This document shows positions 97-33,120 of a stretch of 64,000 bases of DNA, piece by piece. The translations under genes and the position numbers were made by a program. A model generated the notes under the pieces. That model saw only the letters and a list, made by a program, of their open reading frames with translations. It was not told where the DNA came from and searched no databases. Source of the stretch: Emticicia sp. 21SJ11W-3 (GTDB taxonomy: Bacteria > Bacteroidota > Bacteroidia > Cytophagales > Spirosomataceae); contig NZ_CP092074.1 of NCBI RefSeq assembly GCF_024138715.1, forward strand, positions 3,224,001 through 3,288,000, written 5' to 3'. Each line of letters starts with the position of its first letter. Within the stretch, counting starts at the first letter, position 1.

Positions 97-621
97 TCAA
101 TCTTCTTCTTCACCTTCATTAGCTGCCAAAGACAAAATCATTGGTGCTGCATTACCTGCAGGTTTCAGAACAGTAATCACCACTTCAACTTTCAGAGTTT
201 CAGAACGACCAAACTGACCCGTAAACTTGGCAGTAATTTTGGCTCTCGGAATTTTAAATACAATTCCCTCTTTAGGTGTAATTTTTACCGATTTTTCGAT
301 TGTCTGCAAGCCTGAAGGATAGTTCCAAGTGGCTGATACGCCAGTACCAGTTACACTACCGCCAAACACCTTGGCACATTGTGCTAAATCGGGTGCTGCC
401 AATTGGAAGGTAATAGTGGTTACAGCCATTTTAGCAGCTGTGTGGATAGGTTCGTCCTGCTCTTCGGAAAAAAACTCGGTTATCTCAGGGTCTGCTGTTT
501 CAATGGTGCAGCTACCTTCTGCAGTGTGTCCGATAGTTGCCAGCGGACTGCCCATTGCTCCGTCAGTTCCCAGAGGAGCTACTTCAATTTTGGCTAAGCC
601 AATCGTTACTAATTTATCCAT
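97..621 (-). CDS. phage tail tube-like structural protein
   Basis: 174 aa with no signal peptide. The protein is Thr/Val-rich with predicted beta segments and a very acidic C-terminus (EGEEED). It is the last gene of a minus-strand run after connector and completion genes, the usual place for a tail tube or major tail subunit. Residues about 15-55 (AMGSPLATIG... then SEEQDEPI) resemble the N-terminal part of Bacteroidota phage tail tube proteins. The tail tube call rests mainly on gene order and fold-like composition. Tape-measure and baseplate genes would lie beyond the left edge. Alternative: another virion structural protein. Confidence 0.5.
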   Translation of the reverse strand: MDKLVTIGLAKIEVAPLGTDGAMGSPLATIGHTAEGSCTIETADPEITEFFSEEQDEPIHTAAKMAVTTITFQLAAPDLAQCAKVFGGSVTGTGVSATWNYPSGLQTIEKSVKITPKEGIVFKIPRAKITAKFTGQFGRSETLKVEVVITVLKPAGNAAPMILSLAANEGEEED

Positions 622-637
622 TTGAATTTTGTAATTT

Positions 638-1048
638 TTAATTTGTATCCATTAATCTGAATTCAATTCTGAAATGAAGCCTGGTTTGTTTCATCTCAGG
701 CTCATCATAATCTCCCTGCCGCGATGTCCAAAGTGAATAATAGCTCCCATAAGCCTCTCTCAACACCCCTCGCGCTACTGCCAGCACCTCGTCTACCCTT
801 TTGGTATCTTTCAGTGTCTGCTTTTTGCCGTTAATGTTCTGGTAAACCTTGGGTACATAAATATTTACGTTGGCCACACCTGCCTGCAAGGTTCCGTCTC
901 CTACCAACATACTGCTGATCACCACGTCTTCGCCGGGCGAGTCCAGCGGGCGTTCGCCCTTGTAAACGCCACCTCTGATAAAGGTTCTGAGCGGCGAGCT
1001 ACTGATTAAGTCATACAATATGTTGTCCTGATCGGCTGTTGTTCTCAT
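638..1048 (-). CDS. phage neck or tail-completion-like protein
   Basis: 136 aa. The sequence reads as a compact alpha/beta protein: an N-terminal DQDNILYDLI segment, a middle part with GERPLDSPGEDVVISS, and a C-terminal RLHFRIEFRLMD strand. Proteins like this sit between the gp10-like minor head gene and the tail tube in HK97-type modules and cap or complete the tail. It starts 11 bp downstream of its neighbour's stop, within the minus-strand head-to-tail operon. The function is inferred from position, not from a motif. Confidence 0.5.
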   Translation of the reverse strand: MRTTADQDNILYDLISSSPLRTFIRGGVYKGERPLDSPGEDVVISSMLVGDGTLQAGVANVNIYVPKVYQNINGKKQTLKDTKRVDEVLAVARGVLREAYGSYYSLWTSRQGDYDEPEMKQTRLHFRIEFRLMDTN

Positions 1049-1059
1049 TTTTCTGACGA

Positions 1060-1542
1060 TTAAACTTTCCCTTTCCTGAGCTTTTCAAGCGCATCCGTCA
1101 CCGTTTTACCTACATACATTTCAGCGCCGGTCAGTACGTCTTTCGACATCGACTCGGCCTGCACCGCATATTCCGACCCCGAAACCACAATCAGCGCATA
1201 GCCCTTGCCATATTGGGCCGCCAGTTCATAAGCCAGGCTTTCGCCTTGTTGTGCTTCGTTCACCGGTGGTTCGGCCTCTGTGCCATCAGGGGCGCTGGCA
1301 GGCGCATCGGGCATAGGCAAAAAATCTCTGGCTACCACCATCCCGTCTGCCACTATCACGTAGCCAATAGAAGCCGCCAGCCTGCCCGAAGCATCAATTG
1401 TGTGGGCATTGGCGCGCGCTTGCTGCACGCTCTCCTCACCCGCCTGCTTCAATATCTGCAGAAACGCCTCCTTTACCTGTTTAATGCCCGCCTCCAGTTC
1501 CTTCCTGATGTCGGCATGGCTGAAAGTGGATTTCAGAGCCAT
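1060..1542 (-). CDS. HK97 gp10-like minor head/tail joining protein
   Basis: 160 aa. The first half is helical and ends in EESVQQARANAHTIDASGRL, followed by LAASIGYVIV. This 'long helix, A..nAp..tG.Lr.SI' layout is the hallmark of HK97 gp10-like neck proteins. A low-complexity Pro/Ala insert (about residues 77-98) follows, then a C-terminal AQYGKGYALIVVSGSEYA segment. It overlaps the upstream adaptor gene by 10 bp, which suggests translational coupling. Likely role: joining head and tail in the virion. Confidence 0.6.
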   Translation of the reverse strand: MALKSTFSHADIRKELEAGIKQVKEAFLQILKQAGEESVQQARANAHTIDASGRLAASIGYVIVADGMVVARDFLPMPDAPASAPDGTEAEPPVNEAQQGESLAYELAAQYGKGYALIVVSGSEYAVQAESMSKDVLTGAEMYVGKTVTDALEKLRKGKV

Positions 1543-1853
1543 AATCTTGTATGAAAACGGTCTTTACTTGCAAAAATCACCTCGCCCTCCAACCGGATAG
1601 TGCCGTCAGCCTCCAACACCCTTACGCGCTCGCCGGCCTGCAAAGGCGGTACACCCTTCGGGCAGTGTATCAGGTGTGTGGCCTGTAAATAGCTGCCATC
1701 TTCCTTGCTGAACTTCCTTTGCCTGCCTGCTTCGTTACGGCAGGCGCTCACTACTATCCAGGCGGGTTCGTCGGTCACAAAATTGCCCCGGGCATCTTGT
1801 GTAGCCACCGGCACATGGAGCCTGTGTAATACGTATGGATACTGGATTGACAT
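1533..1853 (-). CDS. phage head-tail adaptor-like protein
   Basis: 106 aa from the ATG at 1853. A longer reading would begin at a GTG at 1859. The ATG is preferred because it overlaps the upstream stop as TGATG, a typical coupled start. The sequence is a small beta-rich protein: YPYVLHRLHVPVATQDARGNF, then AWIVVSACRNEAGRQRKF, then GERVRVLEADGTIRLEGEVI. It resembles the SPP1 gp16 / HK97 gp7 class of head-closure proteins in size, order and the opening 'rhrv.i......d..G....W' pattern. Neighbouring connector genes overlap on both sides. Confidence 0.5.
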   Translation of the reverse strand: MSIQYPYVLHRLHVPVATQDARGNFVTDEPAWIVVSACRNEAGRQRKFSKEDGSYLQATHLIHCPKGVPPLQAGERVRVLEADGTIRLEGEVIFASKDRFHTRLWL

Positions 1854-2188
1854 CACCACAAATCAGATTTGTTTTTAATTTTTGGTTGTGCTGCTTTCTG
1901 CACTTTGTTTTCGCGCCCCAGGTTATGGCACAGCAATGCGTAATAATCCTGAATGCCTTCCTTGTCGTAGCTGATGCTATAGCCCCCTTCAGAGACCGAC
2001 GAGACCACCAGCAATTCGGGAATAAAACCATACAACGCCTGCTCGGTTCTATCTACACTATCCAGCGTATACGTTTCATCTGAGGCTATGCCGTTTTTCA
2101 ACAGCAGGGCTTCAATCTCATTGTGGTCAATGATGAACCCAAACCTCCCGAGCTTACTTCTTATGTAGTCCGCAACTAGCATCGGCAT
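1853..2188 (-). CDS. phage head-tail connector-like protein
   Basis: 111 aa. The N-terminal half is helical (MLVADYIRSKLGRFGFIIDHNEIEALL) and is followed by a disordered basic tail. This fits gp6/gp15-like connectors that dock on the portal, which come directly after the major capsid gene in siphophage modules. It starts 5 bp after the capsid gene and its stop overlaps the next start. The connector call is from gene order and length. Confidence 0.45.
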   Translation of the reverse strand: MPMLVADYIRSKLGRFGFIIDHNEIEALLLKNGIASDETYTLDSVDRTEQALYGFIPELLVVSSVSEGGYSISYDKEGIQDYYALLCHNLGRENKVQKAAQPKIKNKSDLW

Positions 2189-2193
2189 ATCGT

Positions 2194-3276
2194 TTATTTA
2201 GACCACGCAGGGTTCAAACCATCTACCAGCCATTTAGCGCTGGCGCTGTTCAGCACCGGAAACGCATTGGCAATACCCAGGCAGGTTTCAACCAGTGGTT
2301 CTTCGCTCGCAAAGCGTTTAATCAGCACGTGTTCACGTTTGATTTTCAAAGCAGTTGAGCTCTCCACATCTTCATCTGCCAGGCGCGTATGGGCAGTGTT
2401 GCCCAGCACCGGGGTTTCAGAGAACAGCAGCACTCCCGCTTCCCAGGGGTTCACCTGTGTGCGTACGCCTTTGATTTCGATGTCGATGAAACTTTCTACC
2501 AGACCAATCACCGGTAGCCCCTGCGCTTTCAAAGCCATGTTTAAGGTTGAAAGCAGCGTAACCTGTGTAGGTGCAGGCGTCTGATTAGCCCACGGAGCCA
2601 CAAAGGCTATGGTTTCGGCCGATACCAGAATGGCATCAATCATATCCTGGTCTGTAAAAATGTAGTTCAGCTTTTTGCCTTTGGCTCTGGCGGCCTTCAC
2701 TACGTCTCTTATTTTGGTGATAGGCTTTGATGTTTCGGCATTGGCCACCGTGATGCTCACCGACACGCCCGACTTGTTAGCCGCCGGAATCAGGAAATCA
2801 ACATTGGCTTCTGTTACCAGCCCGTCGTTATTGGTATTGGTCAACACCACTTTGCCTGTGGATGCCGCCCGTAACGCCAGCCATTCCAGCCGCGCATTTA
2901 CCCCATTGAACACAAAGAGCTGGTCTTCCCAAATCCAGTTCAACAATTCTTTTTTGGCTGCATCGTCTTCGTAGCGTTTCAGCGTGTTGTACTCGTTCAT
3001 CTGCGATTCGGTTTTTTCACGAGCCACCCCGATTTTCGGGATACTGCCGCTCAGTTTAGAAACCACCTCACGTCTTTTACGAGGCGCACGTGTATCCCAC
3101 GAAATCACATCACCCGCCACCGGTGCACCGAACTCTCCTTCCAGCGACTCCCACTTCAGAGAGGTGACGAATTTGAGCGGAAAAAGCGTCGGGAAGTAAA
3201 AGTCTGTCAGGGCATATTCATTGGCCACTGCCTGCATATCCTTCTCGCTCAGTCCGTTTATCAATGATTTTATCAT
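2194..3276 (-). CDS. phage major capsid protein (E-like family)
   Basis: 360 aa. The protein starts with an alpha-helical arm, then a beta-rich stretch YALTDFYFPTLFPLKF and EGEFGAPVAGDVISWD. It continues through a long helix around residues 85-130 and a central domain, ending in an arm with MALKAQGLPVIGL and the beta-strand VNPWEAGVLLFSE. This layout and length match the gpE-like/HK97-fold capsid proteins of Bacteroidota prophages. It is a single-copy structural subunit of the icosahedral head. A 201-bp gap with hairpin repeats separates it from the upstream head fiber gene, unusual inside a head operon. Confidence 0.7.
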   Translation of the reverse strand: MIKSLINGLSEKDMQAVANEYALTDFYFPTLFPLKFVTSLKWESLEGEFGAPVAGDVISWDTRAPRKRREVVSKLSGSIPKIGVAREKTESQMNEYNTLKRYEDDAAKKELLNWIWEDQLFVFNGVNARLEWLALRAASTGKVVLTNTNNDGLVTEANVDFLIPAANKSGVSVSITVANAETSKPITKIRDVVKAARAKGKKLNYIFTDQDMIDAILVSAETIAFVAPWANQTPAPTQVTLLSTLNMALKAQGLPVIGLVESFIDIEIKGVRTQVNPWEAGVLLFSETPVLGNTAHTRLADEDVESSTALKIKREHVLIKRFASEEPLVETCLGIANAFPVLNSASAKWLVDGLNPAWSK

Positions 3277-3477
3277 TTACTGAATCAATTTTGAATGAAA
3301 AAATAAAATACTTAGGTTGTAAAGTCCGTGGGAGGGTTTAGTATAATGATTTCACCTCACCCAACCCTCTCCTTGAAGGAGAGGGCTTTTTTGAATCCCC
3401 CTCTCCTCTTAGGAGGGGGCAGGGGTGAGGTGTAGTCGTAAAGCCAACCCCTCCCATTCCTCACAACCATACAATAA
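3277..3477. repeat. hairpin repeat inserted inside the head operon
   Basis: This 201-bp gap between head fiber and capsid genes holds no ORF. Bases 3352-3435 carry two CCTCTCCTT..AAGGAGAGG / CCCCCTCTCC..GGAGGGGG hairpins and the CAGGGGTGAGGTGTAG tail, the same element type as at 1-80. An A/T-rich stretch follows the capsid ATG on its 5' side (3277-3312). Nothing else is recognised. Confidence 0.55.
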
Positions 3478-4059
3478 TTACACCCACAAAATCTGAGGCA
3501 GGGCCGCTTTCATCTGGGCAGTGGCCACCGGAGCATTGGCTTCAAAAAGCGTAGCTCTCAGCCAGGCATCTACCGCGTTGGTTTCGCCTGCTTTCACCTT
3601 AATGGCATGGCCTGTAACCGCAAACGGCGTTACTTTAAAGGCAGATGTGTTGGTGGTAGCCTCGGCCGCTGCCTGAAAAACACCCCCATACTGCGCCACA
3701 GCCACACCCAGGGTGGTAGCTACGGTAAGGGTGTCGTAATCGGCATTTGAGGTATCAATACCTGTAATTGCATAGGCTTTGGCACCGGTAAGGGCGGCAA
3801 TGAAATCGCCGGTTTTAAAGCCGTGCCCCTTAAACACCAGATAACTGGTAGCCGTATTACCGGCAGCCGTATGCAGCCTGGCAGTTTTCAGCACGTGGTA
3901 TAAACCGTTGTTGTCTTTGCCCACCACCGACCCGGCCTGAACAACCGTGCCGTCGGTAAAATCGGCAGCTGCAATGGTAATACCTCCGCTGATATCTTCC
4001 AGCTTGGTAGCGAACGCCAGCTTATCGGCCAGGTCGCTCTCTTGAAAGTTTTGCATCAT
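3478..4059 (-). CDS. phage head fiber/decoration-like protein
   Basis: 193 aa, Ala/Thr-rich and without Cys or a signal peptide. It has short repeated beta-like segments such as GTVVQAGSVVGKDNNGLYHVL and FKVTPFAVTGHAIKVKAGE. Proteins of this composition are encoded between scaffold and capsid in many Bacteroidota prophages and are annotated as head fiber or decoration proteins. It begins 12 bp after the scaffold stop. An alternative is a capsid cement protein unrelated to fibers. Confidence 0.5.
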   Translation of the reverse strand: MMQNFQESDLADKLAFATKLEDISGGITIAAADFTDGTVVQAGSVVGKDNNGLYHVLKTARLHTAAGNTATSYLVFKGHGFKTGDFIAALTGAKAYAITGIDTSNADYDTLTVATTLGVAVAQYGGVFQAAAEATTNTSAFKVTPFAVTGHAIKVKAGETNAVDAWLRATLFEANAPVATAQMKAALPQILWV

Positions 4060-4071
4060 GAGATTTTGAAA

Positions 4072-4794
4072 TTAAGAATGAAAAACCTGCTTGCCCATAC
4101 CCGCAACACTGCCTGCCTCAGCTGGCGCCAAACCTAAAACCGGCTTGCCGGGCGTTGGCCCTTTGCCTTCTTTCTCGGCTTTTCTGGCATCAATGTAGGC
4201 CTGCGTATCAACCGACACCCCGTTTCTGGTGGTGCGGCCGGGCATAGGCTGTGGAATCTTACCCAACCCTTGGTCGCCAAACAGCGGTTTCACCTCATCC
4301 AGCCCTGCTTCCAGTTCAGTTTTATAGGTTTCAAACTCGCTTTCGTCTCTGAAATTCATCCGCCCAAAATCGCGCAGTTTCATTTGTCTGAACGACTCCG
4401 GCGTGTCTTTCAGCAGCGTCTCAAGTGTTGCCCTCCGCAACTCAGTGGTTTTGCCGTTTTCCAGCGCGCTTACTTTGTCTATCAGCGCTCTGTTGGCCTC
4501 CATCAACCCCTGCGCCCAGGCAGGCACATCATCATTGTCGGGCCTTGTAAAGCCGTTTTCGTTGCCCTCTCTGGGTCCTTTTTGTTTGGCAATGGCCTCG
4601 GTTACCCGCTTGTCGGCATCGCCCTGAAAAGCCTTGAGCAGCGCCTCTACCCCTCCGGTTGCGGTGTCAATTTCACTTTCGTCTGTTACCGTGGTTTCCA
4701 GCATGGTGGCAACAGCGTCAAAAGTTTTTTCGCCAAACCCCAGGTGCTTGTATCTGGTTTTCAGCGCTTGCAGAATTTTCCCCTTTAATAACAT
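4072..4794 (-). CDS. phage scaffolding-like protein
   Basis: 240 aa, highly charged and mostly helical with low-complexity linkers. A central helical segment runs from about residue 90 to 165 (LMEANRALIDKVSALENGK onward). A Pro/Gly-rich C-terminal tail contains GKIPQPMPGRTTRNG. Scaffold proteins have this profile and lie directly upstream of decoration and capsid genes. It is the first gene of the third phage-derived block. A promoter with a palindromic operator lies 48-88 bp upstream (4842-4881). No maturation protease domain is visible. Confidence 0.55.
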   Translation of the reverse strand: MLLKGKILQALKTRYKHLGFGEKTFDAVATMLETTVTDESEIDTATGGVEALLKAFQGDADKRVTEAIAKQKGPREGNENGFTRPDNDDVPAWAQGLMEANRALIDKVSALENGKTTELRRATLETLLKDTPESFRQMKLRDFGRMNFRDESEFETYKTELEAGLDEVKPLFGDQGLGKIPQPMPGRTTRNGVSVDTQAYIDARKAEKEGKGPTPGKPVLGLAPAEAGSVAGMGKQVFHS

Positions 4795-4841
4795 AAGGTG
4801 TGGATTGTGTGAAAAATTTAATGATTATGTTGTGTTCATAA

Positions 4842-4881
4842 CAAAGATAAAAACATTATTTTTGTACTTATAATATAAGCA
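4842..4881 (-). promoter_or_regulatory. operator site A and -7 element upstream of the scaffold gene
   Basis: Bases 4865-4881 form the palindrome TGCTTATA-T-TATAAGTA (minus strand), with one mismatch between arms. It is the same sequence as sites at 29286 and 33057. Reading toward the gene, a Bacteroidota-type -7 element TATCTTTG lies at 4842-4849, 15 nt away, and the ATG 47 nt further. The spacing is longer than at the other two sites. The site also faces the divergent ORF at 4934. Confidence 0.7.
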
Positions 4882-4933
4882 CATCCAATAACACAAAACC
4901 GTGTTAGTCGCATAACCATCACGGATTCCACAC

Positions 4934-5140
4934 ATGAAACACCGCAAAGACATCATCTATCGCCTCACATTCAGGCGCATCGAAAAGGCAGAATATTACC
5001 ACCAGCTAAAGAGCATCTACGCCTATCACACCCGCGACGAAATCGGCTGCCGCATTGGCCACCTGTACGACTCTAAAATTGAACCCGACAAACCCTTTAG
5101 CAATAAGAAAGTGATAATTGAAGTGATAGAAGTGAGGTGA
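4934..5140 (+). CDS. small basic protein, unrecognised
   Basis: 68 aa, rich in Lys/Arg and Tyr, without signal peptide or membrane segment. It has a plausible two-part layout: helical KAEYYHQLKSIYAYHTRDEI, then SNKKVIIEVIEV. It is divergent from the scaffold gene and shares the region containing operator site A, so it could be a regulatory or accessory gene of the phage block. No family was recognised. Chance ORFs of this length exist, so confidence is moderate. Confidence 0.4.
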   Translation: MKHRKDIIYRLTFRRIEKAEYYHQLKSIYAYHTRDEIGCRIGHLYDSKIEPDKPFSNKKVIIEVIEVR

Positions 5141-5145
5141 AGGAT

Positions 5146-5248
5146 TGTGGCCGGTGCGCCGATGCGACGAACTTTCAGTTCGCAGCATATATTAAAAAAT
5201 TGCGAAACATTGCCGCAATGGAATTGTGCCTTTTGTGTACATAGTGGC
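5146..5248. repeat. 103-bp direct repeat, left copy
   Basis: The copy at 7255-7357 matches with two visible mismatches. Both contain the small hairpin GCGACGAACTTTCAGTTCGC and end in TTTTGTGTACATAGTGGC. In this left copy the end is followed by GCCACTATGT, so GTACATAGTGGC can pair with it to make a longer stem. The two copies bracket the M28 peptidase gene. Confidence 0.85.
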
Positions 5249-5402
5249 TAATAATTTTGCCACTATGTCCTCAAAGTACTCAATGTTTCACAATTCAAAT
5301 TTTATGGCAATCTCATACACTTACATCATTTATGTACGTTTATACATAAACGCCGGCTTGAGGATCAGGATATTTCATTTCATTTTCTGTCAAATCCCTT
5401 GT

Positions 5403-7244
5403 ATGTCTACTAACCTTTTAATTGCCCTATCTGCTTTTCTATGTTTTTTCAATGGCTTTGTGCAGGCACAAAATCCGGCTGATAGTGTAGTGCTCCGCAA
5501 AATCAGAGCAGCGGCAGAAACAAACCGTCTGCAACAGATAGTTACCACTCTTGCCGATATAAACGGCCCGCGACTTTCAGGTACCCGCAATTACTATGAA
5601 TCGGCTCGTTGGGCAAAGCAGGAACTGGCTTCTTACGGGGTTGACAGCACCTGGTTTGAATCGTTCGACGAAAAATACAGGGGTTGGCAGGTGAAATCAT
5701 TTAATATAGAATTGACTTCCCCCACCTACATGCACCTCATTGCCTATCCGCTTGCCTATACACAAAGTACCAAAGGAACTGTAAGTGGTGAAGCCATTAT
5801 AGTAAACCATATAGATAGTCTTCCCAAATTGAAAGGCACACTCAGAGGCAAGGTTCTTCTTCTGGCACAGGATTTCCGTTCTTTTAATGCTTCTACGCAG
5901 ATTCTATCAGAGCGTTTATCAAAAGAAACGCTGCAACAGGCTGCCGATAACCCCGACCCCAACGACCTAATGATTGGGTATCATAGTCGAAGGTCCACCA
6001 ATCAAGCCATTGAAAACCAGGAAGCAGCGCGAAGTAACCTGAAAGACTTTTTTACTTTTTGTGAGAAAGAAGGTGTTTTAGCCCTCATTGAACCCAGCGA
6101 TTATCCTTATGGCATTCTTCATGCAGATGGGAATCACCATGTACCCTCTTACCGGCATTTGACAGAGATAAAACCTATAGCTTCTTTTGTAGTTGCTAAC
6201 GAGCATTTCGGACGGATAGTAAGGCTGATAAAAGCCGGAGAAAAACCAATGCTGAAACTGAACCTGCAAACTGAATTTAACTACAATCCTGAGTATAACG
6301 TGAATGTCATTGCTGATATGAAAGGGCATGACCCGGCATTGGCACAGCAGCAGGTGATCATAGGCGCACATCTGGACTCATGGCATGCAGGCACCGGAGC
6401 TGTTGATAATGCGGCAGGTTGTGCAGTAATGATGGAGGCCATCAGGCTATTGAAAGTGGCTGGCCTGCAACCCCGCCGAACCATCAAAATAGGCTTATGG
6501 GGTGGTGAAGAACAGGTCTTTGCTGGCTCCAGAAAATATGTAGAAACGCACGTGGGGAGTTTGACTGATGGCAAACCACAGAAAGACTTCTCTCATATTT
6601 CGGCTTATTTCAATCTTGATAACGGCACAGGTAAAATCAGAGGTATTTATGCGCAGGGAAACAGCAAAGCAAAACCCATACTTGAGCAATACCTGCACCC
6701 TTTTAACGCGGCAGGTAATGGCACTGTTACTTTACAAAATGCCAACCAAACCGACCATGAGCTATTCGATGCCCTTAATATACCTGCTTTTCAATTCATA
6801 CAAGATCCGCTCAATTATATTTCGGCAGTGCATCATACTACAATGGATGTGCGCGAATACGTCAACTTCAAAGACCTGAAAGAAAGTGCAATTATTGTGG
6901 CCTATATAGCCTATAAAACTGCAATGGCTGATGATTTACTACCTCGTCGCGACCACATCAGTATTCTGCCAAGCACAGAAGGTAACACCACTTTTTTTCT
7001 CAAAGGCTTCGAAACTGCCCGGGCAGTTTCAATAGTAAGCGATTTCAACAACTGGAATATGTTTGGCACACCACTCGCCAAAGTGCCGGGTGGCTGGCAA
7101 TGCAAGCTGAATCTGCAACCAGGGAGATACCTTTTTAAGTACATTGTAGACGGCGACTGGACAGCAGACCCAAACACACCCACCAACCAATTACTAAGAG
7201 ACGGCAAAGGCCACGCCGGACTTACAGAAGTGATAGTGAAGTAA
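5403..7244 (+). CDS. secreted M28-family metallopeptidase with C-terminal glycogen-binding-like domain
   Basis: 613 aa from the ATG at 5403. The open frame runs to 5226, but only this start gives a signal peptide, with cleavage after FVQA. The M28 zinc ligands and catalytic residues are all in place: H323 in AHLDSW, D335 in AVDNAAG, E369/E370 in GGEEQ, D406 in NLDNG and H477/H478 in AVHHTT. Residues about 525-613 form a separate beta domain (VSIVSDFNNWNM, RYLFKYIVDGDW) typical of AMPK/CBM48-like modules. The predicted role is aminopeptidase or carboxypeptidase Q-like hydrolysis in the periplasm or outside the cell. The peptidase-CBM48 combination is uncommon. Confidence 0.85.
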   Translation: MSTNLLIALSAFLCFFNGFVQAQNPADSVVLRKIRAAAETNRLQQIVTTLADINGPRLSGTRNYYESARWAKQELASYGVDSTWFESFDEKYRGWQVKSFNIELTSPTYMHLIAYPLAYTQSTKGTVSGEAIIVNHIDSLPKLKGTLRGKVLLLAQDFRSFNASTQILSERLSKETLQQAADNPDPNDLMIGYHSRRSTNQAIENQEAARSNLKDFFTFCEKEGVLALIEPSDYPYGILHADGNHHVPSYRHLTEIKPIASFVVANEHFGRIVRLIKAGEKPMLKLNLQTEFNYNPEYNVNVIADMKGHDPALAQQQVIIGAHLDSWHAGTGAVDNAAGCAVMMEAIRLLKVAGLQPRRTIKIGLWGGEEQVFAGSRKYVETHVGSLTDGKPQKDFSHISAYFNLDNGTGKIRGIYAQGNSKAKPILEQYLHPFNAAGNGTVTLQNANQTDHELFDALNIPAFQFIQDPLNYISAVHHTTMDVREYVNFKDLKESAIIVAYIAYKTAMADDLLPRRDHISILPSTEGNTTFFLKGFETARAVSIVSDFNNWNMFGTPLAKVPGGWQCKLNLQPGRYLFKYIVDGDWTADPNTPTNQLLRDGKGHAGLTEVIVK

Positions 7245-7254
7245 ATTTGTGGCT

Positions 7255-7357
7255 TGTGGCCGGTGCGCCGATGCGACGAACTTTCAGTTCGCAGCATATA
7301 TTGAAAAATTGTGAAACATTGCCGCAATGGAATTGTGCCTTTTGTGTACATAGTGGC
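7255..7357. repeat. 103-bp direct repeat, right copy
   Basis: This is the right partner of the repeat at 5146-5248. The right hairpin arm present after the left copy is missing here. The sequence continues AAAAAGTACACT, only partly resembling it. The copy begins 10 bp after the peptidase stop codon. Confidence 0.85.
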
Positions 7358-7394
7358 AAAAAGTACACTAAACTAATTAAAAAATCACCCGTCA

Positions 7395-8279
7395 CTACTC
7401 TTCCACCTTATTGATTAATCTGATTTTATTATTGGTTCGATTGCTTTCGATCCGACCCATAATTGTTAAATTGATGGCCGAATAAACATCCAATTCAATA
7501 TTCTGAATAAGCATTTGGTATTTTTCAGACATGCCGATAACCCCTTCATACTTTACTTCTACTATTTCACTTTCAGCTTGTATGCCCTTGCCCGGCACCA
7601 GATTATTGTAATCGTCATTGTTCTTTTTCAAGGAAGCATCCGCTGATTTTTTGAGTGGCACAAAGTATCCTTTTAATTTATACTGCTTTTTGGCTTCGTC
7701 CAGAACCACATAGCTATTTACATAATATCCTTCTCGAACGGCAATACTGTCTGTCCAGCCAGTGTTACCTACCGGCCAATTCAACAAAACCCCCGACAAA
7801 GCACCCGCTGAGTGGAGTTCGGGTAAATCAACCCTTGAAAGCTCAATTATTTCTTCCTCAGTTTTGGTAAGTTCATTGCTCTCTTTCAGCTTTATTGTAA
7901 TACTTTTTTTAACCAATGGAAGATAATTTTCAACCGCCATTTTAGAAATCTCATCACTCCCAAACGGTGCATGGGTATCTATGCTGTATCGGCTGTTTTT
8001 ATCTTGCACGCGCATAATTTTAAACGTCAGTATAGGAGCATCCTTGCCCTTAAACGCCAGGTTTCTGGTAACAGAAAAACGATTGACACCCTTCGAATAA
8101 TTGGTAATGATAGTCATGTTGTTTTTTTCATCAACAACTGTGGTGGGTTCGGTATCAAGGTGGGCGGTCTCTTTATAAAAAACCGAAACTATGGTTTTGT
8201 TATCTAAAACCTGATAAACACCGCTTTGTGCAAAAGCATGATGAATGGTAAGCGCCAGCAAAATAAATATTTTTTTCAT
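7395..8279 (-). CDS. secreted protein of unknown function
   Basis: 294 aa with a Sec signal peptide (MKKIFILLALTIHHAFA, then QSG). The mature part is a charged, beta-rich protein with no Cys. It contains the segments TIVSVFYKETAHLDTE, ILTFKIMRVQDKNS and SVVLDEAKKQYKLKGYFVPL-type strands. The pattern resembles Bacteroidota periplasmic proteins of unknown function. It is transcribed alone toward the peptidase. No catalytic motif is evident. Confidence 0.75.
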   Translation of the reverse strand: MKKIFILLALTIHHAFAQSGVYQVLDNKTIVSVFYKETAHLDTEPTTVVDEKNNMTIITNYSKGVNRFSVTRNLAFKGKDAPILTFKIMRVQDKNSRYSIDTHAPFGSDEISKMAVENYLPLVKKSITIKLKESNELTKTEEEIIELSRVDLPELHSAGALSGVLLNWPVGNTGWTDSIAVREGYYVNSYVVLDEAKKQYKLKGYFVPLKKSADASLKKNNDDYNNLVPGKGIQAESEIVEVKYEGVIGMSEKYQMLIQNIELDVYSAINLTIMGRIESNRTNNKIRLINKVEE

Positions 8280-8422
8280 GGGATTATCTTTGCTGCAAAA
8301 AAAGGAAAAAATCCGGTTATGTTTTATCTAATTAAGTTTTTTTAACTATCCCTGCAAAATAAAAACCCAACCACAAAGGTTTAATATGTGGTAATATCCA
8401 AAAACCTCTGAACCCACCCTTT

Positions 8423-24085: not shown

Positions 24086-24172
24086 ACTAAGAAAGGGTTT
24101 ACGATTATAAATTTCTCCCTTAATGCAGGACTATCTACTTCAACATTAAACTTGTAAAAAAAAGGCCCAATA

Positions 24173-24337
24173 ATGGACAAATTAGAAATATTTTTAAACT
24201 CTGAACAACCAGCCACTTGCCCTAAATGTGGCAACAGAACTGAGATAGTCAGAGATATTAAAACCTCTCAGCACCACAAGTGTTATTCAGAAAAGTGTAA
24301 TTTCGAATTCATTTTAGAGTTTGAAAATGAGGAGTAA
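24173..24337 (+). CDS. small zinc-ribbon protein
   Basis: 54 aa. The two Cys pairs are CPKCGNRTE and CYSEKCNFEF, spaced as in a zinc ribbon. The N-terminus is MDKLEIFLNSEQPAT and the C-terminus is acidic. It is separated from vsr by 87 bp and from the HNH gene by only 2 bp, so it is translated together with the nuclease. It may be a cofactor or DNA-binding subunit of the HNH protein (inferred). Confidence 0.65.
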   Translation: MDKLEIFLNSEQPATCPKCGNRTEIVRDIKTSQHHKCYSEKCNFEFILEFENEE

Positions 24338-24339
24338 TC

Positions 24340-25110: not shown

Positions 25111-25278
25111 TCTCTCAAAGAGGTATATAAGTATCTAATTTGGTTTTATACTAAATATGCCTTTACCAGCTCTTCCACCCCCCAAACCGCTACATTTCAT
25201 CAACCGCCACCTGCAGTTCGTCAATTCTCAATAAATCCTGGGCAACAGTTTTCTAAACTTGAATAAAATTCAAGATAT

Positions 25279-27705: not shown

Positions 27706-27721
27706 AAGTTATTGGTTCTTT

Positions 27722-27838
27722 GCTTAAAATTTCCCCCGTGCGACGGTCGCTCCTTTTAAAGGAGGGGTGGCAATTTTCCCAACAAAAGTTGGGAAAATTG
27801 ACGGGTCGGACCGCCGATGCGGTGGTTGAGGCCTTTAA
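27722..27838. repeat. hairpin repeat with a perfect 13-bp internal stem
   Basis: After CTCCTTTTAAAGGAG comes GGGGTGGC, then a perfect stem CAATTTTCCCAAC (27771-27783) / GTTGGGAAAATTG (27788-27800) around AAAA, then an ACGGGTCGGACCG segment and GGTGGTTGAGG. The element at 33700-33846 has the same frame with a different but again perfect stem. It ends 28 bp before the portal stop codon. Confidence 0.7.
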
Positions 27839-27865
27839 ATGAGCTTTGAACCTATTCAGCTCCAC

Positions 27866-29251
27866 CTACTTCCCAACTTTCCCTACCCCTTCCTCACTCT
27901 TAATCCGCTCCCACTCCAACCCGGCGTCCGCCACAAGGCCCGATTTCTCAATAGCCGTTTTCTGCGATAGAATAGCCTTGCCACCCACTGCGCTTTTCAT
28001 GTTCCGCACCAGGCTGTCGAGGTCGTTAATCAGATACGGTGTAATTTCCTGGCGGATATCCATTGCCCCCAGCGTAGTTTTCAGTTCAGGTTTCAGCCAG
28101 GCAATATGTGCTTTTACCAGGCTCAGGCGGCGTTGCAGGTATTCATCAAAAATCTCGCGTTTTTCCTGCACTTTCAGGTGGGCATCCATAAACAGCATTT
28201 CAAGCGCCACGCCCGATATCCCCTGTTTTAAGTCTTTCAGGGTATCGAACGAAATATCCGGCGTTTGGGTGAACGAATAAATCACCTTAAAGAGCGTTTC
28301 AATTTCCAGTCTGATAGACTCAGGCGCGTGGTCCCAGCTCAGGTATGACGCCTTAGAACCCTTCTCGCCCTGTATAATCGCCCCCGATTCTCCTTTTTTT
28401 ACAAAGCCCTCAATTTCGCCCTCAATAAAAATCTTGGGGTTACCGTGGTAGTCGTTGGTATCGGCAAAATTGCTGAGCAAATGCTCCAGCCGCTCAATAG
28501 CCGTTTGCACATCTGCCCAGTCGGCCTGTTCTTCCTGCGCAAAAATAACCGGAACCTTCCCGATGCTATTCACCGCCGACTCCCTTTCCAGCCAGCCGTC
28601 GCCGGTCTTTTCAAAGAGTTTATATTCTTCGTCGGTAAACACCTCAAAAAACGCCACTTCCCTGTTATCACGGTAAAGACTATACGCACGCGAAAACGCC
28701 ACCAGATCGCCATAGCTATTAAAGCAAGGATACAGCTCGTCGCCGTCCCAGGGGCTTAGTTTCAGCACCTTTATCCGGTAAGGCGTTTCAAAGCCGTAGT
28801 CATTATGCTTGCGGTCGGTACTTTCGCCGCTTACAAACCAAACCTCGGCCACGGCCGTAGCCCTCAGTAAATCGCGGGCAATTTTGCGGTTAAAACTATC
28901 CATCTTATTGGCCTGCAGCACTTTTTTTACCAGACCAAGCGCCTGTGCCTCGGCCTCATTTTTAGTCTGACAAACCAGTTTTACCGGATTCCCGAACAGA
29001 AATGCCACCGATGCCCCCACAATTTTTTTCTGGATAGGCAGCCCGAGGCGATTCACAGAATCCCAGCGGTCAAAGCTGCCGTCTTCTTTCAGCACCTTGC
29101 GGTCGGGGCGTTTGTGCAAATCAAATACCGGGTGTTCAGCCACCTGATACTGCGCTTTCAGTTTCTCAATATCGGGTTGGCTCACAGCGCCTTTCAAGAA
29201 CTTCACCAACGCCTCAATGTCGTCAGTCTCAGCAATTTCAAATACTTTCAT
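27866..29251 (-). CDS. SPP1-like phage portal protein
   Basis: 461 aa. The architecture fits SPP1 gp6-like portals. An N-terminal helical part (about 1-60) is followed by NRLGLPIQKKIVGASVAFLFGNP. A wing domain then contains VKVLKLSPWDGDELYPCFNSY-type strands (written here only in part). The stem/crown part follows (ERLEHLLSNFADTNDYHGNP, TQTPDISFDTLKDL). The family signature ...NxKI.V..S.LFGNP is recognisable as ...QKKIVGASVAFLFGNP. It stands alone: no terminase or scaffold is adjacent. It has its own operator-containing promoter at 29270-29302. It forms the vertex channel and motor docking ring of the head. Confidence 0.8.
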   Translation of the reverse strand: MKVFEIAETDDIEALVKFLKGAVSQPDIEKLKAQYQVAEHPVFDLHKRPDRKVLKEDGSFDRWDSVNRLGLPIQKKIVGASVAFLFGNPVKLVCQTKNEAEAQALGLVKKVLQANKMDSFNRKIARDLLRATAVAEVWFVSGESTDRKHNDYGFETPYRIKVLKLSPWDGDELYPCFNSYGDLVAFSRAYSLYRDNREVAFFEVFTDEEYKLFEKTGDGWLERESAVNSIGKVPVIFAQEEQADWADVQTAIERLEHLLSNFADTNDYHGNPKIFIEGEIEGFVKKGESGAIIQGEKGSKASYLSWDHAPESIRLEIETLFKVIYSFTQTPDISFDTLKDLKQGISGVALEMLFMDAHLKVQEKREIFDEYLQRRLSLVKAHIAWLKPELKTTLGAMDIRQEITPYLINDLDSLVRNMKSAVGGKAILSQKTAIEKSGLVADAGLEWERIKSEEGVGKVGK

Positions 29252-29269
29252 TTAGTTGTGTTTTTTTAG

Positions 29270-29302
29270 TAAATATACTATTTTGTGCTTATATTATAAG
29301 CA
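29270..29302 (-). promoter_or_regulatory. operator site B and -7 element upstream of the portal gene
   Basis: A perfect 17-bp palindrome TGCTTATATTATAAGCA is at 29286-29302. In the direction of the gene it is followed after 8 nt by TATATTTA at 29270-29277, a near match to the Bacteroidota TAnnTTTG -7 element. The ATG lies 18 nt later. The palindrome therefore overlaps the expected -33 region. Confidence 0.75.
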
Positions 29303-29343
29303 TATTTATTAGAATAAAATTGTGAGACAGGATAGCCACAAGG

Positions 29344-29414
29344 TACGCTAAGGATACACCATGTTTCACGATTTAAAATTGTGATACCTAGTGTCATTTG
29401 TGTTCATAGTGGCA
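29344..29414. repeat. TTTCAC...CATAGTGGC dispersed repeat
   Basis: GTTTCACGATTTAAAATTGTGATAC can pair internally, and ATTTGTGTTCATAGTGGC follows. The last part resembles the ends of the repeats at 5146, 7255 and 36232, so it belongs to one dispersed family. Confidence 0.5.
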
Positions 29415-29524
29415 ATATTTCAAATCTTTCATCAGGCTATGCTTAAATGTCCATTTCTTACCACTAACCAATCGTTTCAACCAACCATCTTTGCTGGCAT
29501 ATTGAACCTAAAACAGCATCTGAT

Positions 29525-30067
29525 ATGCAACGCAGAAAATTCATTCAGGCCTCTCTGGCATCTATGCCCATCATGGTTGCCCCTTACACCGGCAAAGCCC
29601 GCGCTGCCAAAAGTTTTACAGTGCCGGCCGGTAAAGACCGCTTCAACCAGCCCACGCCATTTAAAGGCGTAAACCCCAACGATGTTAAAATATCTGCCAA
29701 AGACACCGACGGCGAGCTTTCGGTATTTGAATACACAGGCTACCAGAAAACCGGGCCATCGCTGCATGTACATTTGTATCAGGATGAAACCTTTTATGTG
29801 ATAGAGGGTGAATACCTGTTCCAGGTGGGCGACGAACGCTCAACACTTAAAGCGGGTGACACCATTTTTCTGCCCCGAAATATACCTCACACCTGGCTGC
29901 AACTGACCGACAAAGGCAAAATGATTTACTTCCTGAACCCTGCCGGTAAACTGGAAGAGTTTTTTAAAAAAGTATCTGCCGCCCAGGGGCCACCCACCCG
30001 CGAGGCCATAGACAAATTGCACCACGAACACGGCATGAAAGTACTGGGCCCGCCCATTTCTTTATAA
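29525..30067 (+). CDS. cupin-domain protein with Tat-like signal
   Basis: 180 aa. The N-terminus MQRRKFIQASLASMPIMVAP looks like a Tat signal (RRKFIQ). The cupin core has GPSLHVHLYQDETFYVIEGE (motif 1 His/Glu ligands), then GDTIFLPRNIPHTWLQL (motif 2 His). The substrate is unknown. The following AraC-type gene starts 40 bp later on the same strand and may sense the product, an inference from position. The pair lies between two phage-derived blocks on the opposite strand. Confidence 0.85.
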   Translation: MQRRKFIQASLASMPIMVAPYTGKARAAKSFTVPAGKDRFNQPTPFKGVNPNDVKISAKDTDGELSVFEYTGYQKTGPSLHVHLYQDETFYVIEGEYLFQVGDERSTLKAGDTIFLPRNIPHTWLQLTDKGKMIYFLNPAGKLEEFFKKVSAAQGPPTREAIDKLHHEHGMKVLGPPISL

Positions 30068-30107
30068 AAAATGCTTATCTTTGTTAACATACCCATGTTT
30101 GCAAGCC

Positions 30108-30932
30108 ATGCCATTTTTTTATGACATACCGCCGGGGTTTGCGCTGAGGCAGCACGTAAGGGTGTATCGGTTTCTGAATTTTTCATTTACCGATACGGCT
30201 CCGGTAAAGGCTTACCCTCCGCGCCCCGAAATAACACTGGCGTTTTATCCGCGAGACCCCGAGCAGGTAAGCTATGCCAAAGGTAAGCCATTACGATCGG
30301 TAAAATCGGCGATTATAGGTCAGCAAAGCGTCGTGAGCCAAAGGCAGGTCGGACAAGAATTTCTGCTGATACAGGTGGTTTTTCAACCGGGTGGGTTTTA
30401 CCGCCTCACGGGTATTCCAAGTTTCCATCTTACCAATCAATACCTGGACGCTGAAGCCGTTCTGGGCGCCGAATTGGGCAGACTGAACGAACAACTGGCC
30501 AATATCAGCCATTATCCTGCCATGATTCCGGCTGTTGAAAATTACCTCATGTCTTTGCTTTTCAAATCCACCTACCAGCTTCGCCCTATCGATAAGCTGG
30601 GTTTGGTGATGCTTGAAAACCCGGGCGGCTACACATTAGACCAACTGGCCAAAGAAGCCTGCCTCAGCGCCAAACAACTGGAACGCAACTTCAACGAACG
30701 AATGGGCATTAACCCCAAATACTTTGCCCGCATCATCCGGTTCGACAAAGCCTTCAGGATGAAAAACGCGTACCCCCATAAAGACTGGCTGAGTATTGCG
30801 CTCGACTGCGGTTATTACGACTACCAGCATCTGGTGCGCGACTACAAAGAATTTACAGGCGCAACTCCAACAGCCTTTTATCTCCAAGACACCCAATCGC
30901 CCGAACGTAAATTTGGCATTGTGGAAGTGTGA
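30108..30932 (+). CDS. AraC-family transcriptional regulator
   Basis: 274 aa from the ATG at 30108. The open frame also allows a TTG at 30081, but MPFFYDIPPGFALRQHVRVY is the typical N-terminus of the group. An N-terminal effector domain precedes a C-terminal AraC double helix-turn-helix, with LDQLAKEACLSAKQLERNF and SIALDCGYYDYQHLVRDYKEFTGATP as the two HTHs. It probably regulates the cupin gene upstream. Confidence 0.9.
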   Translation: MPFFYDIPPGFALRQHVRVYRFLNFSFTDTAPVKAYPPRPEITLAFYPRDPEQVSYAKGKPLRSVKSAIIGQQSVVSQRQVGQEFLLIQVVFQPGGFYRLTGIPSFHLTNQYLDAEAVLGAELGRLNEQLANISHYPAMIPAVENYLMSLLFKSTYQLRPIDKLGLVMLENPGGYTLDQLAKEACLSAKQLERNFNERMGINPKYFARIIRFDKAFRMKNAYPHKDWLSIALDCGYYDYQHLVRDYKEFTGATPTAFYLQDTQSPERKFGIVEV

Positions 30933-30957
30933 TGGTCATTCTGGGTGCCGATACTTT

Positions 30958-31003
30958 GTTTTTCATTCCCCTTTAGGGCGGTCCGACGTTTCGGCTAGGG
31001 GCT
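30958..31003. repeat. CCCCTTTAGGG-type repeat
   Basis: CCCCTTTAGGGCGGTCC, then GACGTTTCGGC and TAGGGG, lie just after the AraC stop and just 3' of the large terminase gene. A part resembles the GTCGGACCGCCG stretch inside the repeat at 27722. Confidence 0.4.
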
Positions 31004-31006
31004 GCA

Positions 31007-32569
31007 TTAAAATAAATTCGCCAGATTCTTCACCCGCCTGCTCACCCTAACCGGATAAAACGTATTGGCCAGGGCATCAAAAGCATCGGTACTTCTGCCG
31101 AGGCGTTTCTTGATTTCTTCTTTCGGCTCTATGATAATCGCCCCATTGCTCTGAAACCTCCACCGTATCTCTGTTGCCTCCTCCGTCAGCCCGAAACCCG
31201 GCGGCAACATTGCCTGTTGGTTATTCTTTGGGTTCAGCCAATCCCTCACCGCCCAGAACAAATACGCCCGCATGTTGGCAAAAGTGTACTGGCCAGTCAG
31301 GTCGGTCAGCTTTTCTCCTCTGGTATCACTGGCGGCCTCGCTATACTTGCAAGACAAAGCCCTGGCTTTAAACCCCAGCTCTGCTATGCGGGCATACACC
31401 CCTGCCCCCTCGCCAATGGTATCTATCAGGCTCATGGCGTGGGCATCATGCTGCAATACCGACACAATTTTTCCGGCCACCTCCATGTGGTCGGCGGTGC
31501 CGCCGCTGTTGGCCATGGTAAATTGCTTTACAATAGGGCCGTAACGGTAGCAAAATACGGTGCTGTCGCGCCCCATGCCGGCTACATCAACGCCCAGTCG
31601 TAATTGCTCCGGGTAATTGCTCTCCAACCCATGCGACTGGTGATACTCCGCCCAACGCTTCTGTGCCAGTTCAATCCATATTTCCGGAATCAGGCTGTCT
31701 TCCGCTACTTTCGGAAACCGCCCCAGTACTTTCTTGCGGAAATTATCTTCCGGCCTGTACCATACCCCCTCAAACTGAAAATCATCAAGCGTTTCGTTAA
31801 AATCACTGGCCTGTATAATGCTGCACCAGTTTTCAATCTTGTCTTTTACCCAGGGATAATCTACCTGCCCGGGTATAATCACCTGCTTTTGCACCACATT
31901 GGGGGCAGTTAAAGAATTAAGCCTGAACTTCGCCCAACGTTCGCCTTTCTGGCTGCGGGCAGCGTAACCGATAGTGGTATTGGGGTTAAAGACAATCAGC
32001 ATCCGTGAGTTTCCCTGCAAATTGCCCTCAATAGCCGCAAAAGTATCATCCAGAATCCCCGATGCCTCCGTAACCACAAACATGGTATTAACTGCATGAA
32101 AACCCGACCATGACTCATGCCGGTGCGGGTCAGCCCTGAAAGCCGTCAGAAACCACTCTTCGTGGTCTGTGCGTATATCAAAGGCCGTCAACTTGCCGGG
32201 CAACTCAATGCCCCGGCTGCGCGCACGGTTAAACAAGCGGGCAACCTCCGGCACACAGATGTTCTTCACCTGTCGTTCGGTTGGGGCTGTCATAGCCACC
32301 TTTGTGTTGGCAATCAGCTCACCTTTTTCGTTCCATTTGGGGGTCAGGTACATAAAGCAGACAGCCGCCACAGCCGCCACAAAGTCTTTACCCCGGGCTG
32401 TACCCGAAGCCACACTGGTGCGCGGATACACCTGCACCGACCGCAGAATGGCCTCCTGCTCGGCATCCAGATGCACACCCAGCGCTTCACGCGCAAACAA
32501 ACACCAATCCTGTCGCCACTCTATGATTTTGGCCTTGGCGGCCAGTTCATAGTTTTCATTCATCTTCAT
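31007..32569 (-). CDS. phage terminase large subunit
   Basis: 520 aa. The N-terminal ATPase begins with a helical segment, then the Walker A-like SGTARGKDFVAA at about residues 55-66. The Walker B-like strand is MFVVTEASG, and the coupling motif region follows. The C-terminal nuclease has RLGVDVAGMGRDSTVF with the first Asp, SLIDTIGEGAGVYARIAELG with a further Asp, and RLGRSTDAFDALANTF with the last. It packages DNA into proheads, docking on the portal, which in this window is encoded 1.8 kb away beyond two host-type genes. Overlaps the small terminase by 14 bp. Confidence 0.9.
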   Translation of the reverse strand: MKMNENYELAAKAKIIEWRQDWCLFAREALGVHLDAEQEAILRSVQVYPRTSVASGTARGKDFVAAVAAVCFMYLTPKWNEKGELIANTKVAMTAPTERQVKNICVPEVARLFNRARSRGIELPGKLTAFDIRTDHEEWFLTAFRADPHRHESWSGFHAVNTMFVVTEASGILDDTFAAIEGNLQGNSRMLIVFNPNTTIGYAARSQKGERWAKFRLNSLTAPNVVQKQVIIPGQVDYPWVKDKIENWCSIIQASDFNETLDDFQFEGVWYRPEDNFRKKVLGRFPKVAEDSLIPEIWIELAQKRWAEYHQSHGLESNYPEQLRLGVDVAGMGRDSTVFCYRYGPIVKQFTMANSGGTADHMEVAGKIVSVLQHDAHAMSLIDTIGEGAGVYARIAELGFKARALSCKYSEAASDTRGEKLTDLTGQYTFANMRAYLFWAVRDWLNPKNNQQAMLPPGFGLTEEATEIRWRFQSNGAIIIEPKEEIKKRLGRSTDAFDALANTFYPVRVSRRVKNLANLF

Positions 32570-33023
32570 CCCTCGCTGATGTTTCCTTCAGAAAATCAAA
32601 AAAACCTCTGTTTATACTTTCTCCGCCCGACGTATGGTCTTTTTTATCAACCAAGCCCAGTTTGCGGGCTATTATATTGGCATTGAGCAGCCCCGAAGCC
32701 ACCCCCTCAAACTGCTGATTATCAATTATCTGCCGTATACGGGCGGTAGTAGAGGCAAATTCCTGGCGTGCTTCATAAGTTTTAAAAGTACCCAGGCTGA
32801 TGTCGATAAAATTGCAGAGACCCTCAAGCGTAAACGGGCGCATACGCCTGATATCAGCAGAAACAGGCCGCCCCTGATGCTGAAAAACCTTCTCTTCCAG
32901 CAGCGGATTATCTGAGCACCATCTGAAATATTCATTGCAGGCTTCAATCAGGGCTTTCGGGGTTCTGAATACCCTGTCACGCCCGGTTGTCGACCGTAGT
33001 TGGTAGTATTCTTTCTCAGTCAT
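32556..33023 (-). CDS. phage terminase small subunit (gp3-like)
   Basis: 155 aa. An N-terminal helix-turn-helix-like region has FRTPKALIEACNEYFRWCSDN, then RRMRPFTLEGLCNFIDISLGT. The C-terminal helix and NANIIARKLGLVDKKDH tail are typical of gp3-like DNA-packaging proteins. It binds phage DNA and feeds it to the large subunit. It is the first gene of the terminase block and starts 18 nt after a -7 element with an operator at 33057-33073. Confidence 0.85.
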   Translation of the reverse strand: MTEKEYYQLRSTTGRDRVFRTPKALIEACNEYFRWCSDNPLLEEKVFQHQGRPVSADIRRMRPFTLEGLCNFIDISLGTFKTYEARQEFASTTARIRQIIDNQQFEGVASGLLNANIIARKLGLVDKKDHTSGGESINRGFFDFLKETSARDEDE

Positions 33024-33040
33024 GCAGATTTAATTTACAC

Positions 33041-33073
33041 CAAATATAAACATTTATGCTTATATTATAAGCA
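33041..33073 (-). promoter_or_regulatory. operator site C and -7 element upstream of the terminase genes
   Basis: A perfect palindrome TGCTTATATTATAAGCA is at 33057-33073, extended by A/T to 19 bp. Toward the gene it is followed after exactly 8 nt by TATATTTG at 33041-33048, a match to the Bacteroidota TAnnTTTG -7 element. The small-terminase ATG is 17 nt further. Layout is the same as at site B. Confidence 0.8.
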
Positions 33074-33120
33074 TGATTTTGGAAAAATATTCGGGCTTAA
33101 AAACATAAAGATATATAACG

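Follow-up and report, generated by a model that had tools for sequence, protein, structure and literature searches.

The window, i.e. the whole stretch of 64,000 nucleotides analyzed, holds three of five minus-strand phage operons, 25.0 kb in total, that are scattered across 157 kb of the 5.18 Mb contig of Emticicia sp. 21SJ11W-3. Along the chromosome the operons follow the order of a siphophage genome: terS-terL; portal; scaffold-capsid-neck-tail tube; tape measure; and distal tail-tip-fibre-lipase-amidase-holin. We propose, with a probability of about 65%, that they represent a domesticated siphophage, whose five operons are kept at five host loci and are probably co-switched by one regulator, likely as a gene transfer agent (GTA). 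As a related species has all five operons at matching chromosomal places, the particle is presumably kept for the bacteria's own use, most likely moving pieces of their DNA between cells.

The ORFs that the original prediction had assigned to the three blocks were found at the same coordinates, all on the minus strand. The features of the window are given below, with identities to the orthologs in Emticicia agri and with gene positions compared to those in Porphyromonas phage phage005b_ATCC49417 (PP754928), hereafter phage005b.

33059..33071, minus strand: operator CTTATAATATAAG of operon 1, with the -7 box TATATTTG at 33041-33048
32556..33023, minus strand, operon 1: terS, terminase small subunit (Pfam GP3_package, 2e-27; phrog_606, 7e-40; E. 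agri, 79%)
31007..32569, minus strand, operon 1: terL, terminase large subunit (phrog_2, 8e-24; no Pfam match; E. agri, 86%)
29288..29300, minus strand: operator of operon 2, with the -7 box TATATTTA at 29270-29277
27866..29251, minus strand, the single gene of operon 2: portal (SPP1_portal, 2e-48; E. agri, 80%)
4934..5140, plus strand: small divergent gene of 68 aa beside the operon 3 promoter (phrog_10608, function unknown, 1e-6)
4867..4879, minus strand: operator CTTATATTATAAG of operon 3, with the -7 box TATCTTTG at 4842-4849
4072..4794, minus strand, operon 3: probable scaffold (phrog_5824; precedes the head fibre and capsid genes, an order shared with phage005b)
3478..4059, minus strand, operon 3: probable head fibre or decoration protein (phrog_20501; 'head fiber protein' of phage005b at the same position)
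2194..3276, minus strand, operon 3: major capsid protein (phrog_29, 4e-33; no Pfam match; E. agri, 93%, dN/dS 0.035)
1853..2188, minus strand, operon 3: probable adaptor (phrog_7935; order as in phage005b)
1533..1859, minus strand, operon 3: probable head closure protein (phrog_13251; order as in phage005b)
1060..1542, minus strand, operon 3: probable neck protein (phrog_5377; order as in phage005b)
638..1048, minus strand, operon 3: probable tail completion protein (phrog_5597; order as in phage005b)
97..621, minus strand, operon 3: probable major tail (tube) protein (Phage_TTP_17, 1e-4, a weak match under the Pfam cut-off; phrog_6767; position of the major tail protein in phage005b)

The PHROGs of seven operon 3 products (phrog_5824, phrog_20501, phrog_7935, phrog_13251, phrog_5377, phrog_5597 and phrog_6767) are of unknown function, and the role of the 4072..4794 product as a scaffold is probable from gene order. 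Operon 3 extends past the left edge of the window by one gene (genome 3223460-3223999). What we take to be the ATPase and nuclease motif residues of TerL are invariant across seven aligned TerLs, indicating that the terminase motifs are intact. The 68-aa divergent gene is a candidate member of the particle system; it has counterparts at the same position in E. agri (71%) and in a prophage of Emticicia sp. BO119 (49%), and no relatives in the viral contigs or phage records searched. The predicted fold of its product has a mean pLDDT of 58.

Two more blocks are present on the contig outside the window, both with the same promoter type: a lone tape-measure operon (genome 3146760-3151160) and an operon encoding the distal tail protein (Dit), the tip and the lysis proteins (genome 3099688-3111525), the latter including an amidase and a holin. 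Thus the three blocks originally described were confirmed, but their number should be five. Host genes lie between the operons in both carrier species, 21SJ11W-3 and E. agri. In the window, the gap between scaffold and portal spans 23.1 kb, with host-type genes among those scanned, and a cupin and an AraC gene sit between portal and terL. A misassembly is unlikely, because the 21SJ11W-3 genome is a single contig and the independent draft of E. agri agrees with it. No integrase, replication or repressor genes were seen among the block genes scanned, and a tRNA scan of the five stretches gave none. Related phages have a minor head (MuF) gene, for which neither 21SJ11W-3 nor E. agri has a match. 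ORFs of IS110-type transposases adjoin one block.

All five operons are preceded by the dyad CTTA-N5-TAAG and a -7 box of the Bacteroidota type, in line with the palindrome that had been noted ahead of all three window blocks. A search of the whole contig for GCTTATATTATAAGC with at most one mismatch returned only four places, namely the three window operators and one site before a distal-tail gene, compared to none for the reversed pattern. Within the window alone, a three-mismatch search gave 6 matches against 2.99 expected, which is not significant; the evidence therefore lies in the count for the whole genome. Exact matches to a 19-base promoter consensus occur only at the five operons in 21SJ11W-3 and the five in E. 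agri; as the consensus was built from these same ten sites, the independent part is the absence of other sites only. The dyad is invariant in all ten promoters and the letters of its spacer vary between sites. Its centre lies 16-18 bases from the -7 box in eight of the ten, and 24 bases in both scaffold promoters. In E. agri, CTTATAWTATAAG alone was found at four places, one apparently by chance, with two for the reversed control, a count that is not exceptional; a third palindrome type there (C12:104604), within or beside a short ORF and without promoter context, was set aside as chance.

Another idea is a split phage that would use the palindromes to recombine its pieces into one genome prior to packaging. 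The blocks do share one strand, a phage-like order and a short common site each; however, these sites are promoter elements, with varying spacers and a fixed spacing to the -7 box, exchange between them would join host DNA rather than phage genes, and no integrase was seen in the blocks. We consider such rejoining barely credible.

The domesticated-particle reading suggests the following course of events. One putative trans-acting protein would bind CTTA-N5-TAAG, immediately ahead of the -7 box, and is probably an activator, since the dyad occupies the place expected of a -33 element. In a subset of cells, this shared regulator would activate the five operons together, and heads and tails would assemble from the products. 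The terminase would then fill the heads with chromosomal DNA, because there is no contiguous phage genome that could be packaged. Finally, amidase and holin would lyse the producing cell, and the particles would deliver DNA to kin, acting as a gene transfer agent.

Comparison with E. agri revealed the same five operons with the same promoter, between orthologous host genes and at corresponding chromosomal places; for example, the portal gene adjoins the same 808-aa host gene in both species. The dN/dS values are 0.03-0.18 in 13 of the 16 shared phage gene pairs, the other three being saturated, compared to 0.06-0.11 in 8 of 13 flanking host pairs, five of which are saturated. For terL the value is 0.03 at a dS of 3.5, which is near saturation. 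The synonymous divergence of the phage genes resembles that of the flanking host genes and is saturated or nearly so. GTAs are expected to be inherited mostly vertically and to diversify along with their hosts. On this point, in a comparison limited to two carriers, the operons show orthologous places and host-like synonymous divergence, but two relatives lack them.

The same data weigh against the alternative raised in the original prediction, a prophage recently broken by rearrangement and now decaying. The IS110-type ORFs beside one block, the missing MuF gene and the existence of related contiguous prophages would fit such a history. However, a second species holds the same five positions at saturating synonymous divergence, dN/dS is low and the operators are kept in 10 of 10 promoters. 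As the synonymous sites are saturated or nearly so and yet the 16 compared genes keep open frames, we regard recent breakage as very improbable, and this alternative as largely refuted. The preferred reading of that prediction, a functional dispersal of a domesticated, GTA-like head system, gains support from the conserved places in E. agri, the low dN/dS and the common promoter. The satellite dependent on other loci, which that prediction also named, may still apply.

Conservation is uneven among the genes, which, like the missing MuF gene, speaks against our main reading. The tape measure and the tip share only 36% and 34% identity with E. agri, and the fibre-region ORFs have no E. agri counterpart at the filter used. 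Fast divergence of tip and fibre genes is expected of a targeting device, and the same gene content with its intact lysis set would also serve a domesticated particle of another kind, devoted to PBSX-like killing or altruistic lysis and transferring few or no genes. Nevertheless, TerL (86%), portal (80%) and capsid (93%) are among the best conserved proteins, which would be surprising for a particle whose benefit lay in its tail, and we consider a killing or lysis function rather unlikely. Alternatively, the operons might provide structural proteins in trans for a specifically packaged satellite or plasmid that lies at another place in the genome. Such a helper role would suit the lack of an apparent self-packaging unit, and the retained terS (79%) could give packaging specificity; however, the conserved operators front these operons only, making this role improbable. 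A GTA is our best guess for the function of the particle system.

In two relatives nearer to E. agri, BO119 and G002, the order of host genes is largely conserved, but the syntenic sites lack the phage operons. As a further point against our main reading, the particle system is dispensable, since only two species carry the operons and these two nearer relatives do without them. An intact prophage at the same site had been named as the case against functional dispersal; a related contiguous prophage does exist in BO119, but on a separate contig (NZ_JACETV010000005). It resembles the scattered operons in capsid (73%), portal (68%), Dit (59%) and the small phrog_10608 gene. It differs in occupying one locus, in having its own terS and terL of another family, a helicase, a reverse transcriptase and a MuF gene, and in the letters of the palindrome at its portal promoter.

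The empty sites were searched for remnants by tblastn with 33 queries (21 from 21SJ11W-3 and 12 from E. agri) at E values up to 1. There were 18 matches in BO119 and 13 in G002, compared to 6 and 10 with reversed proteins. Nine of the BO119 matches, the best at 2e-18, were obtained with residues about 675-1064 of the E. agri tip; this region also matches other BO119 proteins. One group of the nine falls within an ORF close to the capsid site. The remaining matches have E values of 0.01 or weaker. Shared end repeats as a sign of transposition were not found: the block borders have 54 11-mers in common, against a mean of 97 for random placement, and the element common to four of the five borders is the promoter dyad.

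The AraC and cupin genes were rejected as the regulator, as E. agri has other genes between portal and terL. Host S24-type regulators (PF00717) were found; the regulator gene of 21SJ11W-3 includes one CTTA-N5-TAAG, at its 3' end and outside its promoter. The LexA-like SOS operator of Bacteroidetes is CTAA-N5-TTAG, which is expected to front the regulator gene itself as well, and diverged dyads of the same spacing are described in parts of PMC8565304. The present operators share this 4-N5-4 layout but differ in their letters. Moreover, in four genomes the reg1/polymerase pair has promoters with different motifs and no match to the palindrome, so the palindrome was rejected as the host LexA box. 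The dinB promoter of 21SJ11W-3 has an operator site with one mismatch, scoring 22.2 compared to 30.4-36.1 for the ten operon sites; the dinB promoters of E. agri, BO119 and G002 score 2.5, 1.3 and -6.9, respectively. The regulon is possibly connected to dinB, which we take as a lead only.

More specifically, we give even odds to a Bacteroidota GTA of independent origin: a scattered regulon in phage order along about 157 kb, fired by one activator, apparently on the leading strand and possibly linked to DNA damage via dinB. To our knowledge no GTA was previously described in Bacteroidota; our literature search found none for this phylum, and nothing on scattered domesticated prophages. If true, this proposal would extend GTAs to a major phylum and would mean that virion core genes were turned into an ordinary host regulon. 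The common operator also provides a practical handle to find scattered particle genes where prophage finders see only fragments.

Among known phages, phage005b and the Riemerella RAP44-type siphophages match the operons gene for gene in order, with 38% identity in capsid and 41% in portal; the order common to phage005b is terS-terL-portal ... scaffold-head fibre-capsid-neck genes-tail tube-x-tape measure-x-Dit. These phages differ in two respects: their genomes are contiguous and include integrase, repressor, replication and minor capsid genes, and their terminase belongs to a different branch (about 28% for the best TerL match among phage records). The present set is not an intact prophage, as host genes separate its operons and no integrase, repressor or replication gene was seen among the block genes scanned. 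Tailocins consist of tail genes without capsid or terminase, whereas capsid, portal and terL are present here. RcGTA has its structural genes in one main cluster, with regulators, fibres and lysis genes at the remaining loci. In the present system, by contrast, even the structural core is split among five operons that all have the same operator. Compared to known GTAs, the present system belongs to another phylum and derives from another phage ancestor. The criteria for GTAs and the five RcGTA loci are given in part of PMC9662315. Against these, the structural proteins are caudoviricete-like, endogenization is complete at five loci over 157 kb with the same places in E. agri, and the genes, 25.0 kb dispersed along 157 kb, may not be packaged in full, depending on head size. 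GTAs are further defined by encapsidating mostly random host DNA and by delivering it to other cells, as is predicted for the present system. Overall, as in RcGTA, BaGTA and BhGTA (viriforms), head, tail, packaging and lysis genes derived from caudoviricetes are endogenized at several loci and do not form a contiguous phage genome. Such dispersal across loci is often found in GTAs according to PMC9662315 and PMC11841831.

The original prediction, which placed phage head genes in three minus-strand blocks each behind one 17-bp palindrome, was borne out gene by gene and site by site by window ORFs, profile scans and a palindrome search. The genome is a single contig of 5,177,490 bases, in which the window spans C1:3224001-3288000. 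Searching the whole contig with at most one mismatch revealed the palindrome at four places; the fourth precedes a distal-tail (Dit) gene and is 117 kb to the left of the one at the scaffold. A tape-measure gene, with CTTACATTATAAG and TATATTTG upstream, was located using the tape-measure protein of Emticicia sp. BO119. With these two further blocks outside the window the operons number five, and every one of them is on the minus strand.

Phage operons outside the window
Genome 3099688-3111525, minus strand: Dit-to-lysis operon
First gene of this operon: Dit (phrog_14220, 3e-63; Dit family phrog_33, 1e-9)
Same operon: tip protein, 1771 aa (phrog_19846, 1.5e-120)
Same operon, after the tip: further fibre-region ORFs, GDSL lipase, amidase and holin
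Same operon: 127-aa gene, common to the BO119 prophage
Genome 3146760-3151160, minus strand: tape-measure gene, alone in its operon (Pfam TMP_3, 5e-14)

The five operons comprise 24,977 bases of genes across 157,336 bases of chromosome, with gaps of 1.8, 23.1, 72.3 and 35.2 kb between successive operons. Their order equals the gene order of the contiguous Porphyromonas siphophage phage005b; by plain arithmetic, one fixed order of five has a chance of 1/120 under random placing. GC skew is negative in all 12 bins, so replication probably makes the minus strand the leading one here. An 8-kb stretch downstream of the capsid operon (genome 3210993-3219210) contains five ORFs, each exactly 350 aa long; the two scanned are both IS110-family transposases with identical scores. 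Three genes adjoin the tape-measure gene (genome 3143856-3145483): one for a helix-turn-helix protein, one for a protein whose HE..H motif is metallopeptidase-like, and another small one. By eye the trio resembles a toxin-antitoxin or ImmA set.

All five blocks are also present in Emticicia agri, as revealed by polyprotein, portal and tape-measure queries.

Phage blocks in Emticicia agri
C36: scaffold-to-tail block
C36, 39 kb from the scaffold-to-tail block: portal
C60: terS/terL
C41: Dit-to-lysis block
C62: tape measure

An apparent second terL copy was rejected as a contig end, since C36:61476-62895 and C60:1-1420 share 1,420 identical bases inside terL. Orthologous host genes, not always immediate neighbours, flank each block on both sides, with portal and terS/terL flanked as a pair; the portal-terL interval holds different genes in the two species. 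The tape measure has 741 residues in E. agri versus 1466 in the window's genome, so the predicted tail lengths should differ.

Across eleven host proteins (4857 columns), the window's genome is 71.4% identical to E. agri, and E. agri, BO119 and G002, a further relative assigned to the same genus, are about 81% identical to one another; the unrooted four-taxon tree groups E. agri with G002 (support 0.94). In BO119 and G002 the host gene order is largely that of the carriers, with some local shuffling, and none of the corresponding places holds a phage operon. Nor were recognisable phage remnants found at these empty sites, apart from matches to a C-terminal stretch of the E. agri tip, which other BO119 proteins also share. 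The simplest history puts the operons in the common ancestor, followed by loss in the other lineages; they may instead have inserted into an old host backbone and then been lost, one of several possible orders of events.

Selection was assessed between the window's genome and E. agri with a custom Nei-Gojobori script, for which 16 pairs of phage genes and 13 of host genes were compared. Thirteen phage pairs gave finite dN/dS values of 0.027-0.179, with tape measure, tip and lysin saturated, and eight host pairs gave 0.059-0.106, with five saturated; large dS values, such as 3.5 for terL, are unreliable. Median pS, read off the dN/dS table, is similar for phage (about 0.69) and host genes (about 0.71), which makes recent transfer of the phage genes between the two lineages unlikely. 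Seven aligned TerLs agree in every residue of the presumed Walker A and B and nuclease motifs.

Bacteroidota promoters are described by -33/-7 elements. In all ten promoters of the two species, five from each, the dyad CTTA...TAAG is invariant and its five spacer bases vary; from its centre to the TAnnTTT(G/A) box that follows, the distance is 16-18 bases in 8/10 and 24 in both scaffold promoters. The dyad thus occupies the place of the -33 element, from which we infer that a trans regulator binding it would be an activator. It occurs seven times in 223 kb of the window's genome, five being the operons. The pattern CTTAYDWTRTAAGYAYRAA, derived from the ten promoters themselves, matches exactly only there in the two genomes; with up to two mismatches, its 38 matches in the window's genome (reversed control, 19) and 43 in E. 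agri (control, 32) are mostly noise. Of 13 other genomes searched with CTTATAWTATAAG, 12 have no match, and E. agri has four (reversed control, two per strand), a count that is weak taken alone because the reversed control also gives 0-4 per strand. In the dinB promoter of the window's genome (about 5108699) a site resembles the operator, scoring 22.2 where the operon sites score 30-36, and dinB promoters of three other genomes score poorly; the link is a lead only. At window 33430-33620, behind the terS promoter, stretches around gtcccgatagggacggtatat recur in either orientation.

The portal query matches six of 148 relatives, including the window's own genome; related phage genes lie close together in G030, G041 and G076, and the contiguous BO119 prophage has different terminase genes together with genes for a helicase and a reverse transcriptase. 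It also has a minor head gene of MuF type, for which no match was found in the window's genome or E. agri. The reverse transcriptase (C24:45290-46255; phrog_1423, 2e-118) perhaps belongs to a diversity-generating element, and the prophage's tape-measure gene (C24:70351-75042) is inverted relative to both neighbours, with a divergent promoter towards Dit. Best identities in phage records are about 28% for TerL, 38% for capsid and 43% for portal. TerL reaches 60-63% in four viral contigs, and the capsid values there are 73%, probably from the BO119 prophage, with 48% in two.

Altogether, the operons most likely represent a gene transfer agent (GTA), the best fit to the sequences, since packaging, head, tail and lysis functions are complete and maintained by selection with no unit for them to package. 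Judged by title or abstract opening, none of the literature matches listed concerns a GTA in Bacteroidetes/Bacteroidota, and the excerpt of PMC12946183 names GTAs of other groups. According to excerpts of PMC9662315 and PMC11841831, GTAs are often dispersed over several loci, some with one or two genes.
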